33,066 nucleotides of DNA, taken from contig NZ_SMCQ01000032.1 in the NCBI RefSeq assembly GCF_004343035.1, positions 1-33,066 on the forward strand, in the 5' to 3' direction. Shown here in pieces: positions 985-4,750 of the stretch. Positions within the stretch are counted from its first letter, which is position 1. Each line of letters begins with the position of its first letter. The notes under the pieces are model-generated. The model saw only the letters and a program-made list of their open reading frames with translations. It was not told the origin of the DNA and ran no database searches. This DNA is from Longibaculum muris (GTDB taxonomy: Bacteria; Bacillota_I; Bacilli_A; Erysipelotrichales; Coprobacillaceae). A program made the translations under genes and the position numbers.

Positions 985-1024
985 ATAAAGCAAAAATAGT
1001 TTTAGCCGATTATTTTTGCTTTAT
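985..1024. terminator. Strong hairpin after the Rpn-like frame (bidirectional terminator shape)
   Basis: ATAAAGCAAAAATA (985-998) pairs perfectly with TATTTTTGCTTTAT (1011-1024) around a 12-nt loop. A- and T-rich arms would allow termination on either strand. Confidence 0.7.
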
Positions 1025-1049
1025 CATTTTCTTATATTTATAAGTAAAT

Positions 1050-1382
1050 ATGAACTTATACAAAGAAGTAACTATGGTGACAAACAGTGAAGAACTAGTC
1101 ATAAGGATAGAGAAAGAAGAAAGGGAGGAAGTAGACATGTGTCAGGTACTAGAGGAATTTAAATTAGAAAGTGAAATGAGAGGACTTGAAAGAGGCCGTA
1201 GTCTTGGACTCAAACAAGGGAAGATCCAAGCCATTGTAAATCAACTAAAAAGCAAATTTGGATTTGTATCAAAGGAACTGATCATGAAGATAGAAGAAAG
1301 TTCAGATGACAAGATAGATGCTTTGACAATCAAGATTATTGATGCAAGAAGTGAAAAAGAACTGATAGAGATTTTATCTTAA
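1050..1382 (+). pseudogene. Duplicated 3' fragment of the Rpn-like gene
   Basis: From about 1078 this repeats the 3' part of the upstream Rpn-like gene (from about 639) with a few substitutions and the same stop position. It lacks the whole nuclease core. It also lacks 24 bp, equal to eight residues of the QG-rich tail ('LDQGVKQG' is present in the first copy and absent here). The ATG at 1050 lies in unrelated sequence, so the 110-residue frame probably has no nuclease function. It is likely the product of tandem duplication or of recombination between family members. Confidence 0.7.
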
Positions 1383-1404
1383 TACATAGACAAACAATTA
1401 TAAC

Positions 1405-1433
1405 TTGTACTTATAAAAAAATAAGTATATAAT
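1405..1433 (+). promoter_or_regulatory. Sigma-A promoter of the ABC-F leader
   Basis: TTGTAC (1405-1410), a 17-bp spacer and TATAAT (1428-1433). Transcription should start near 1440, about 20 nt before the leader ORF and 170 nt before the ABC-F start. Confidence 0.75.
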
Positions 1434-1458
1434 GAATTTAATGAAATGAGGTGGAAGG

Positions 1459-1479
1459 ATGTATAAATTTTCTTGCTAA
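1459..1479 (+). CDS. Six-residue leader peptide MYKFSC of the ABC-F attenuator
   Basis: ATG at 1459 opens a six-codon frame (Met-Tyr-Lys-Phe-Ser-Cys-stop). It lies seven bases after a strong GAGG (1448-1451) and about 20 nt into the predicted transcript. Its last codons are themselves one arm of the leader hairpins: 1468-1476 pair with 1519-1527. This is the expected architecture of a stalling peptide for translation-inhibiting antibiotics. No homologue is known to me; the function is inferred from position and pairing. Confidence 0.65.
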   Translation: MYKFSC

Positions 1480-1588
1480 AACTAAGTGCATACTAAAAGG
1501 ACTCTTTTTAGCGTGCTCGCAAGAAAATAGACATCCTTTTTTATATCTTTTGATAATGCGACAAGTCTATTTTCTTGTCGCTTTTATT
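1467..1588 (+). promoter_or_regulatory. Ribosome-mediated transcription attenuator upstream of the ABC-F gene
   Basis: Four segments can pair in two exclusive ways. Segment 1 (1467-1476, inside the leader ORF) pairs with segment 2 (1519-1528) over 10 bp. Segment 3 GCGACAAG (1558-1565) pairs with CTTGTCGC (1574-1581), followed by TTTTATT, which is an intrinsic terminator. Segment 2 extended (1520-1532) also pairs perfectly over 13 bp with 1565-1577, which would destroy the terminator. A small hairpin (about 1493-1511) between segments 1 and 2 brings them together. Inferred logic: free translation gives 1:2 plus the terminator (off). A ribosome stalled on the leader masks segment 1 and frees segment 2 to act as antiterminator (on). 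Confidence 0.8.
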
Positions 1589-1608
1589 ATTGAAGGGAGT
1601 GAAAAAAG

Positions 1609-3108
1609 ATGTCGCTTATTCAAGTTAATCAATTAACTTTTCAATATGAAAATCATTATGATATAATTTTTGATCATGTTTCATTTCGTTTTGATACAAA
1701 TTTTAAAACAGCGTTAATAGGTAGAAATGCAAGAGGGAAAACAACCTTTCTAAAATTGTTGATGGGCGAGTATGAATATCAGGGGGAAATTATTAAAAGT
1801 GAAGAATGTGAGTATTTTCCTTATGAAATCAAAAATAAAGATTTATTGACTTTAGATATTTGTTTAGAAATTGCACCAGAAATACAATCCTGGCAATTGG
1901 AAAGAGAATTGCATTATTTAGATTTAGAAGGTCAAGATCTTTTCTATCGACCATTTTCTACATTGTCTATGGGAGAACAAACGAAAGTTTTATTGGCAGT
2001 TTTGTTTTTGAAAAGAAATTCCTTTTTGTTAATTGATGAGCCAACCAATCATTTAGATACTTTTTCAAGAGAGGTCGTTGCTAAATATCTAAAACGTCAA
2101 AAAGGCTTTTTATTAGTAAGCCATGACCGTCATTTTATTGATATGTGTTGTGATCATATTATTGCAATCAACATGACAACAATCGAGGTTGTTAATGGTA
2201 CCTTTTCTTCTTGGTATGATAATAAAATGAAAAAAGATGAACATGAAGAAATGAAAAATGCTAGATTAAAAAAAGATATTTCACGTTTAGAAACATCTCG
2301 TCAAAAAACTGCAAGTTGGTCACAAAGGGTTGAAAACAGTAAGGTCGCACATGGAAAACGTGAGGCTGGTGTGAAGGCTGATAGGGGCTATGTGGGGCAT
2401 AAGGCGGCTAAAATGATGAAAAGGTCTAAAAATATTGAAAAACGTCAAATTCAACAGGTTGAGGAAAAGAAAAAGCTATTAAAAGATGTGGAGGAATATG
2501 ATGATTTAAAAATAACACCTTTAACATATTTTCAAACAAATCTTGTTTCTTTCTTACATGTATCTTTGTATTATCAAGAAAAGATATTGTTTAAAGATTT
2601 AACTTTTTCTATTCAAAATAAAGAACGTATTTTATTAAAAGGAAAAAATGGTTGTGGAAAATCCAGTGTGATTCGTGCTTTATTGAATCAATCAATTGGA
2701 ATAAAAGGAGAAATCAATCGAGGCAGTCGTTTAAAAATTTCTTATGTTCCTCAAGATTGTTCAATGCTTTCAGGAAGTTTCCTTTCTTTTGTAGAAAGCT
2801 ATGACGTTGATACTACTCTAGTTATGACAATCTTAAGAAAATTAGGATTTTCACGTTCACATTTTGAAAAAAACTTAGAGGATTTAAGTGAAGGACAAAA
2901 AAAGAAAGTCATGTTAGCTATTTCATTAGCGACCTCAGCTCATCTTTATATTTGGGATGAACCATTAAACTATATTGATATCTATTCGAGAATGCAAATT
3001 GAAAAAATGGTTTTAGAATATCAACCAACTTTATTATTTGTAGAACATGATTATTTCTTTCAAGAAAAAATCGCAACGAAAGTCATTGATTTCGATGAAC
3101 TTATTTGA
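1609..3108 (+). CDS. ABC-F ATPase, Lsa/Vga-like ribosomal protection protein
   Basis: A 499-residue soluble protein with two ABC cassettes and no membrane segments, as in ABC-F translation factors. Cassette 1 has Walker A 'GRNARGKTT' (residues 38-46), signature 'LSMGEQ', Walker B 'LLIDEPTNHLD' and the switch 'VSHDRHF'. Cassette 2 has 'GKNGCGKSS', 'LSEGQKKK', 'WDEPLNYID' and 'VEHDYFF'. The charged linker between them contains 'GYVGHKAAKMMKRSKN', characteristic of the Lsa/Vga/Vml-type antibiotic-resistance branch. These proteins bind the ribosomal E site and dislodge lincosamides, streptogramin A or pleuromutilins. The start at 1609 has GGGAG about 10 nt upstream. The attenuator leader strongly supports an antibiotic-inducible role. 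Which drugs are covered cannot be read from the sequence. Walker A has Ala where most relatives have Gly, still within GxxxxGKT. Confidence 0.88.
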   Translation: MSLIQVNQLTFQYENHYDIIFDHVSFRFDTNFKTALIGRNARGKTTFLKLLMGEYEYQGEIIKSEECEYFPYEIKNKDLLTLDICLEIAPEIQSWQLERELHYLDLEGQDLFYRPFSTLSMGEQTKVLLAVLFLKRNSFLLIDEPTNHLDTFSREVVAKYLKRQKGFLLVSHDRHFIDMCCDHIIAINMTTIEVVNGTFSSWYDNKMKKDEHEEMKNARLKKDISRLETSRQKTASWSQRVENSKVAHGKREAGVKADRGYVGHKAAKMMKRSKNIEKRQIQQVEEKKKLLKDVEEYDDLKITPLTYFQTNLVSFLHVSLYYQEKILFKDLTFSIQNKERILLKGKNGCGKSSVIRALLNQSIGIKGEINRGSRLKISYVPQDCSMLSGSFLSFVESYDVDTTLVMTILRKLGFSRSHFEKNLEDLSEGQKKKVMLAISLATSAHLYIWDEPLNYIDIYSRMQIEKMVLEYQPTLLFVEHDYFFQEKIATKVIDFDELI

Positions 3109-3162
3109 CAAAAGAGTCATGAATCTATAAAATAAAGGATAGAAAGTAATGAGGGTCAAGAT

Positions 3163-3669
3163 ATGAGAAATTTGGTTGTAACAGATAAAGATATTTCAAC
3201 ACAATTATTTAAAAATTCAGTCATTGTTAATCTCAATAATATTCATTATTCATCTTGTACAGGTGGCTTGGAATGTTTAAAATGTGCCGGAGCTTGTTAT
3301 TTTAAAGATGATATGAGTATTATCTCTAAATGGATGAATGATTGTCAGTTGATTATCTATATTACACGAGTAAAATATGGATGTTTTGATATTCCTTTTA
3401 AGAAGATGTTAGAAAGATTAGTGGTTAATCATGAACCGTTTTATTCACTAGTTGATGGGGAAACATGTCATTTAGGAATTAGTCAATTACGTAAAAAATT
3501 ACTCGTGATTGGTTATGGTGATGTGAATGAAGAAGAAAAGAAAATGTTTAAAGATCTTTTGGATGAATCAACACTTGGTTTTTCTTATTCTTCAGTAGAT
3601 GCATATTTTTGTGAAGAAGATGAATTAGAAGATACTTTACGAACTTTTGGAGGTGTTGATCATGAGTAA
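3163..3669 (+). CDS. Flavodoxin/NADPH-FMN-reductase-like protein with cysteine cluster
   Basis: A 168-residue protein. Its first half resembles flavodoxin-fold NAD(P)H-dependent oxidoreductases and iron-sulfur flavoproteins. A cysteine-rich loop 'SSCTGGLECLKCAGACYF' is followed by 'KDDMSIISKWMNDCQLI', the usual 'CxxC...kDDM' segment after the FMN-binding region. The usual N-terminal nucleotide-binding strand and loop ('GSPR' type) is absent, so FMN binding as a stand-alone protein is doubtful. It is translated from GAGGG before ATG 3163 and overlaps the next gene by 8 bp, so the two are coupled and may act as one redox unit. The family assignment is moderate; substrate unknown. Confidence 0.55.
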   Translation: MRNLVVTDKDISTQLFKNSVIVNLNNIHYSSCTGGLECLKCAGACYFKDDMSIISKWMNDCQLIIYITRVKYGCFDIPFKKMLERLVVNHEPFYSLVDGETCHLGISQLRKKLLVIGYGDVNEEEKKMFKDLLDESTLGFSYSSVDAYFCEEDELEDTLRTFGGVDHE

Positions 3670-4258: not shown

Positions 4259-4287
4259 GATATCATAATATCGCTACTCACTTTTTT
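4245..4287. terminator. Bidirectional terminator between convergent genes
   Basis: GTGAGTAG (4251-4258) pairs with CTACTCAC (4274-4281), extended inside by GATAT/ATATC. An A-tract lies before it and a T6 tract after it, so it serves the plus-strand flavodoxin pair and the minus-strand VOC gene. Confidence 0.85.
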
Positions 4288-4750
4288 AAAAATGAATATG
4301 TTTAATATAATCAACGGGAATCCCTATTTTATTAGCCGCTTCTTCATAAGATAAACCTTGACTCAAATATCGTTTAACAACCTTTTTCAAAGTTTCACCA
4401 ACTTCAATGACATGTCCATCAGGGTCATAAAATCTTACTGTTCTTTGACCCCAAGTATGTTCTTTTAACGGATGAATCAAAGGGACATTATGCTCATTAA
4501 GTTTTATCATGAATGCATCAATATCATCAATTTCAAAATAAAGCTCACTTGCATGATTTAATAAAACAATATCATTATCATCCTTATGAATCAAATCTTT
4601 CCATATCTCATAAGATTCTAATACAATCCCAGATGAGAGTGTTACACGACCATGAAAATCTAATAACACCTTTAAATCTAAAATATGACGATAAAAGGCT
4701 TTTGAACGATCTAAATCCTGAACAATTAAAACAGTGTTTTTATAACGCAT
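4286..4750 (-). CDS. VOC-superfamily (glyoxalase/dioxygenase-fold) protein
   Basis: A 154-residue protein with the paired beta-alpha-beta-beta-beta modules of the vicinal oxygen chelate fold: 'NTVLIVQDLDRSKAFYRHIL' at the N-terminus, 'ELYFEIDDIDAFMIKL' centrally and 'TVRFYDPDGHVIEVGETL' near residue 115. The final Glu of 'HVIEVGE' and Glu in 'ELYFEI' are usual metal-site positions, but the N-terminal His ligand of true glyoxalase I is not evident. The last 30 residues ('GLSYEEAANKIGIPVDYI') form a small helix-turn-helix-like extension. A ribosome site (AAGGAA) precedes the start. The substrate is unknown; members include lyases, isomerases and antibiotic-binding proteins. Confidence 0.75.
   Translation of the reverse strand: MRYKNTVLIVQDLDRSKAFYRHILDLKVLLDFHGRVTLSSGIVLESYEIWKDLIHKDDNDIVLLNHASELYFEIDDIDAFMIKLNEHNVPLIHPLKEHTWGQRTVRFYDPDGHVIEVGETLKKVVKRYLSQGLSYEEAANKIGIPVDYIKHIHF

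Follow-up and report, generated by a model that had tools for sequence, protein, structure and literature searches.

The leader and the ABC-F gene downstream

The 33,066-nucleotide stretch of Longibaculum muris DNA analysed here (the window) carries a gene for an ABC-F ribosome-protection protein, directly preceded by a leader whose parts are collected in Table 1. The protein scored 444.6 bits against the NCBIfam model NF000355 (ribo_prot_ABC_F), above the curated cut-off of 380, and 661.6 bits over its full length against the Lsa family model NF000167, by far its best match among the ABC-F subfamilies. Because this second score is below the curated cut-off of 750, we call the gene Lsa-like only. 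The best solved relative was Lsa(A) (7nhk, E 7e-123), and the next was 8buu (8.5e-60), which is listed as ExpZ and is the VmlR2-ribosome entry of PMC10201436. The NF000355 score and the Lsa(A) match uphold, as Lsa-like, the Lsa/Vga-like ABC-F gene of the initial annotation. One copy at this level of similarity is present in the window's own genome.

Table 1. Coordinates of the leader features and of the gene that follows them.
Feature	Position	Strand	Description and basis
Leader attenuator, overall	1405-1608	+	Directly before the Lsa-like ABC-F gene (1609-3108)
Promoter	1405-1433	+	-35 TTGTAC 1405-1410, 17-nt spacer, -10 TATAAT 1428-1433; arrangement same in many relatives
uORF Shine-Dalgarno GAGGTGG	1448-1454	+	Sequence; GGTGGAAGGATG kept in most relatives
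uORF ATG TAT AAA TTT TCT TGC TAA (MYKFSC + UAA)	1459-1479	+	Sequence; MYxFSC-type in 21 same-family leaders
Anti-antiterminator hairpin	1454-1539	+	1454-1462/1531-1539 plus 10 bp 1467-1476/1519-1528; folding, covariation of the core
Inner hairpin inside the anti-antiterminator	1488-1516	+	Minimum-energy fold
Antiterminator	1520-1577	+	1520-1532/1565-1577, 13 bp, perfect; fold with ribosome block, covariation
Intrinsic terminator	1558-1588	+	Stem 1558-1565/1574-1581, 8-nt loop, U-rich tail 1582-1588
Possible extension of the terminator hairpin	1540-1603	+	Part of the ABC-F Shine-Dalgarno (about 1594-1599) is paired in it; minimum-energy fold
Lsa-like ABC-F ribosome-protection protein	1609-3108	+	499 aa; NCBIfam, structure relatives

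The initial annotation had described three pairings (10 bp between the uORF and a middle segment, an 8-bp terminator stem with U tract, and a 13-bp antiterminator), and all of them lie exactly where it placed them; its six-codon ORF and the ribosome site GAGGTGG were likewise confirmed. It had passed over the helix that includes the start codon and the last part of the uORF Shine-Dalgarno (1454-1462/1531-1539), the inner hairpin, and the possible terminator extension over the ABC-F Shine-Dalgarno. The proposed sigma-A promoter held up in part: the -10 element is perfect and the arrangement recurs in relatives, many of which have clearer TTGxxx/TATAAT pairs at the equivalent place, but the -35 element is weak (3/6 matches) and the pair is unlisted by the promoter scan. 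A scan of positions 1000-3300 gave the terminator hairpin (1558-1581) as its sole terminator-like site. Folding of 1442-1608 yielded -53.4 kcal/mol compared to -30.0 +/- 4.0 kcal/mol for shuffled sequences (z -5.8; 0/200 shuffles).

In an Rfam search the leader had no match at the gathering threshold, and the matches at E up to 10 were weak and far below gathering scores. It was also unmatched in a plasmid collection, and there is thus no sign of mobility from that search. The promoter is directly preceded by a truncated Transposase_31/DUF4351 copy (1050-1382); the end (639-967) of an upstream Transposase_31/DUF4351 (Rpn/YhgA-like) gene at 44-967 is repeated at 1077-1382.

Folding of the leader under a ribosome block

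We consider it probable that the leader is a ribosome-controlled attenuator in which arrest by LSAP-type drugs on the start codon or immediately downstream of it switches the ABC-F gene on. Without drug, ribosomes would finish the tiny uORF or would already have left; the uORF strand, which runs from the last bases of the Shine-Dalgarno through the final codon, is then predicted by folding to pair with 1519-1539, and transcription would be expected to stop at 1558-1588. Judging from studied relatives, namely the ARE5, VmlR and CplR leaders with their arrest by such drugs at initiation or on the start codon, a lincosamide, pleuromutilin or streptogramin A would block the first peptide bonds and hold the ribosome on or just after the AUG. 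The held ribosome would cover the uORF strand and leave 1520-1532 free to pair with 1565-1577, as in the fold switch seen in silico; with this antiterminator formed, the terminator would be lost and the ABC-F gene transcribed. Drug induction of the gene is proposed by analogy with the same relatives.

Folding of the transcript to 1588 gave probabilities of 0.98 for the anti-antiterminator and 1.00 for the terminator when unblocked. With a block from -15 to +15 on the AUG, the terminator fell to 0.02 and the antiterminator reached 0.98. With the block at codon 6, the antiterminator and terminator reached 0.55 and 0.44. The outcome depended on the footprint, as blocks of -12 to +12 or -15 to +12 left the window's terminator at 0.68 or 0.56.

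We applied the same simple thermodynamic test to 83 leaders, counting a leader as switched when the terminator fell below 0.5 under a start-codon block. By this measure 59/83 leaders were switched, compared with 0/83 for an equal-size downstream block and 0/83 when the middle segment was shuffled; the 24/83 unswitched leaders included 14/22 of the more distant leaders with 6-7 codons. Among 21 same-family MYxFSC-type leaders, blocks on codons 1-2 switched 16, a block at codon 6 switched 8, and a block at the stop switched 3. The idea that stalling on codons 3-6 operates the switch is therefore not supported in silico, where codons 1-2 switch best and codon 6 and the stop worst.

When the full leader to 1608 was folded, the extended terminator hairpin remained favoured at equilibrium under a ribosome block too, and the switch therefore has to be kinetic. 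This hairpin, part of the window's minimum-energy fold, also raises an alternative of mainly translational control, in which the extension would hide the Shine-Dalgarno of the ABC-F gene and transcriptional attenuation would be minor. Both layers are combined in CplR and VmlR. Nevertheless, we regard mainly translational control as very improbable: the terminator and antiterminator are conserved, unlike the Shine-Dalgarno pairing, which exceeded its shuffled control only slightly within the family (0.82 vs 0.66) and stood at 0.66 vs 0.70 in distant leaders. On these same values, Shine-Dalgarno hiding was too weak to be kept as a conserved second layer.

Conservation of the uORF and of the pairings

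Relatives of the ABC-F gene were found in 27/43 same-family genomes, and the leader DNA was matched in 22 of the 43, with a few short matches falling elsewhere. The regions upstream of the 27 loci mostly carry a uORF of the form MYxFSC (x = K, T, I, L, Q or R), usually directly after GGTGGAAGGATG; variants in the family were MYKISC, MYHTFC, MINFSCK, MKSFPY... and MSDFPDKK. A pattern combining the uORF with its ribosome site matched 20/311 same-order genomes, once in each, compared with 0 for a reversed-pattern control, and comparison of coordinates placed 20/20 matches about 120-340 bases upstream of an ABC-F gene. Since all pattern matches lie just upstream of such a gene, the leader is dedicated to it. 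A terminator candidate was present in all 84 leaders collected, although the one called in L021 looks wrong.

Two ABC-F relatives from one genus (g11) of the same family, L022 and L033, are preceded instead by unrelated leaders, in which short inverted repeats lie close to the candidate uORFs MRMYV and MRIVRYGHVASAHI. In six loci with an intact leader, namely L034 and L037 (both in genome G001, with several stops), L019, L023, L035 and L036, the ABC-F frame is broken by stops. These may be decayed genes or assembly errors; related genomes carry intact copies.

Covariation was examined in 19 distinct same-family sequences, aligned from anchors set by hand and restricted to the core strands, a design that leans towards the structure. 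In this alignment 97.4% of cells were paired in the anti-antiterminator core and 4 of its pairs had changed on both sides (0.230 vs 0.177; score reached by 1/500 shuffles), and the antiterminator had 93.9% paired cells and 5 two-sided pairs in 22 cells (0.336 vs 0.198; 0/500 shuffles), while in slid control alignments the paired cells dropped to 50-67%. Positions that pair in the antiterminator only were the most variable, one pair occurring as GC, AU, UA and UG and another as UA, CG and UG. In L021, replacement of the Phe codon TTT by ATT is matched across all three strands. Comparison of homologous leaders, the check suggested by the initial annotation, thus found the uORF and the pairings kept, with two-sided compensatory changes in both exclusive helices. 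Taken together, folding, conservation and compensatory changes bear out its description of an attenuator before an Lsa-like ABC-F gene, with a uORF that looks translated and with a terminator and an antiterminator that exclude each other. In addition, we tried cross-pairing uORF segments with the middle segments of other species, which was uninformative because of the shared core TTTCTTGC/GCAAGAAA and the greater length of the distant leaders.

The same strands encode part of the peptide, the Phe, Ser and Cys codons of the uORF being paired strand. In codon 3 of the 21 same-family MYxFSC/MYxISC uORFs, positions 1 and 2 vary and position 3, a paired base, is always A, a pattern that is the reverse of ordinary coding conservation. 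From such sequence comparisons, conservation of FSC appears to stem mainly from RNA pairing, and the peptide itself probably matters little. Codon 2 (TAT, Tyr) is invariant in 21/21 same-family leaders yet unpaired in the window's fold, and so the peptide may make some contribution.

These observations bear on an alternative in which a drug in the exit tunnel and the nascent MYxFSC peptide jointly arrest the ribosome, either late in the uORF or on its stop, like MsrDL with erythromycin. The uORF shares its length and MY start with MsrDL, and both the invariant Tyr codon and the strongly conserved FSC would fit such peptide-specific arrest. We nevertheless think it unlikely: codon 6 and the stop are the least effective stall positions in silico, the third residue, on which MsrDL depends critically, varies freely in these uORFs between K, T, I, L, Q and R, the FSC codons coincide with paired bases, several relatives lack a stop after codon 6 and have uORFs of 7-20 codons, and the same switch is present with AUG-stop uORFs. 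Early arrest at the start codon, rather than a special stalling peptide, is the likely trigger. A codon 3 that is free in amino acid and fixed at its paired third base, together with the AUG-stop uORFs of relatives, likewise speaks against the stalling peptide acting through codons 3-6 that was first proposed.

Distant leaders, start-stop uORFs and known systems

Among 80 Lsa-type loci from other Bacillota the same plan recurred often, the uORF strand carrying TTTCTTGC, the middle segment GCAAGAAA and the terminator TTTCTTG(T/C). The uORFs of these distant leaders include MRNFSC in Desulfosporosinus, MDFSC or MDISC in Brevibacillus, Paenibacillus and Cohnella, MINFSCK in Anaerotignum and MNSTFC in Dorea. 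In Paenibacillaceae, 31/38 identified uORFs consist of AUG followed directly by a stop (TAA 14, TAG 12, TGA 5), and three further ones have 2-3 codons. Examples with AUG-stop include L079, L080, L084, L087, L091, L093, L094 and L098, in which, as in others, the uORF is part of the same three-segment switch and lies some 200-300 nt before the ABC-F gene.

In all leaders, in any frame, the paired segment ends 15-21 nt from the AUG, and mostly 16 nt from it in the AUG-stop leaders. AUG-stop could in principle be a mere by-product of pairing. The stop triplet is paired in 28/31 of these leaders, and its identity could therefore partly reflect pairing; the AUG, however, is fully paired in the anti-antiterminator in just 13/31 and yet kept in all 31, so that pairing alone leaves the conservation of the AUG unexplained. 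UGG, which pairing would also allow, was never seen. The Paenibacillaceae AUGs are presumably used as start codons, and many of them lie rather far from GGAG, at about 12 nt.

The range of uORFs also weighs on a reading in which the uORF senses a shortage of aminoacyl-tRNA (Cys or Phe), as in the leaders of amino-acid biosynthesis genes. Nearly all six-codon uORFs do end in a Cys codon. Such sensing is extremely improbable in our judgement, given that the Cys and Phe codons are single and never in runs, that the AUG-stop and two- or three-codon uORFs of many relatives are free of them, and that the target gene encodes a ribosome-protection factor. There is about an even chance that the Lsa-type leaders across Bacillota represent one old switch whose uORF would only hold a ribosome, the Paenibacillaceae AUG-stop reading drug-arrested initiation or blocked fMet release with no peptide at all.

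Attenuation of ARE-ABCF genes through ribosome arrest on uORFs is an established kind of control (PMC9226507, PMC10201436, PMC10314930, PMC12421871), and by every feature tested (conserved uORF, terminator, exclusive antiterminator) the window's leader belongs to it. The vmlR leader of Bacillus subtilis, with uORF MIN and an anti-antiterminator, antiterminator and terminator (PMC9226507), resembles it in its uORF strand within the anti-antiterminator, its antiterminator, its intrinsic terminator, a possible Shine-Dalgarno-hiding hairpin and a PLSA-type ABC-F gene, and its initiation arrest by lincosamides and pleuromutilins (PMC9226507) is, by analogy, like the arrest proposed here. It differs in having a three-codon uORF of other sequence, and NusG pausing and (p)ppGpp are known for vmlR (PMC9226507). 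Reported uORF consensus sequences are MR[I/M] for cplR, MK[L/Q] for vmlR2 and, as a prediction, MAGN for lsaA (PMC10201436); MYKFSC lies outside the vmlR, cplR and lsaA consensus (MIN, MR[I/M], MAGN). The cplR leader of Clostridioides difficile, compared here by its description, shares a 5' hairpin with the uORF and a terminator that also hides the gene's Shine-Dalgarno, but belongs to another ABC-F subfamily and has another uORF (PMC10201436). The Enterococcus lsa(A) leader regulates the nearest characterised ABC-F family, through a four-codon uORF of unrelated sequence (PMC10201436).

The leader peptide of msrD, MsrDL (MYLIFM), has six codons and is arrested at its stop codon (PMC10314930). 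This leader resembles the window's in its six-codon uORF starting MY before an ABC-F gene and in transcription attenuation (PMC10314930); whereas its macrolide-specific stall at the last codon or stop needs the peptide, early codons suffice in silico for the window's leader and the peptide varies. In Streptomyces are5sc/tiaA, with an MLV uORF, LSAP drugs arrest ribosomes at the start codon; there too the uORF ribosome site overlaps the antiterminator pairing, although the host is an actinobacterium and the sequences are other (PMC12421871). The very short length of the uORF, which the initial annotation had thought new, is therefore no novelty, as MsrDL also has six codons and other ARE-ABCF uORFs have 3-4. 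The sequence itself does appear new, being described neither in Rfam nor in the open-access papers found; among the papers listed for the peptide motif (NFSC, MYKFSC etc.), none used it as a leader peptide.

We regard the start-stop variant of Paenibacillaceae as a more novel lead than the window's own leader. In the papers on bacteria that we found, no start-stop uORF was described as an antibiotic sensor. The default minimum of uORF4u is three codons, so start-stop uORFs are missed and such sensors may be under-counted. A start-stop sensor acting through ribosome stalling is described in plants, the AUG-UAA uORF of NIP5;1; it resembles the Paenibacillaceae leaders but is eukaryotic and works through boron-dependent mRNA decay (PMC11915504).

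With these results, intrinsic ABC-F genes that look switchable by drugs extend to the window's order, which includes Faecalitalea as judged by a shared leader, and to much of Bacillota. The results also separate the constraints of peptide and RNA pairing, which are usually confounded, and they provide a natural series of uORFs with 1, 2, 3, 5, 6, 7 or more codons, all built into a single architecture, with which the needs of an arrest sensor can be tested.

Elsewhere in the window, the reverse-strand gene at 4286-4750 encodes a glyoxalase/VOC-fold protein that weakly resembles fosfomycin-resistance enzymes and scores under every curated NCBIfam cut-off, and 15057-15375 matches the class B RNase P RNA of bacteria (Rfam RF00011, 231 bits).
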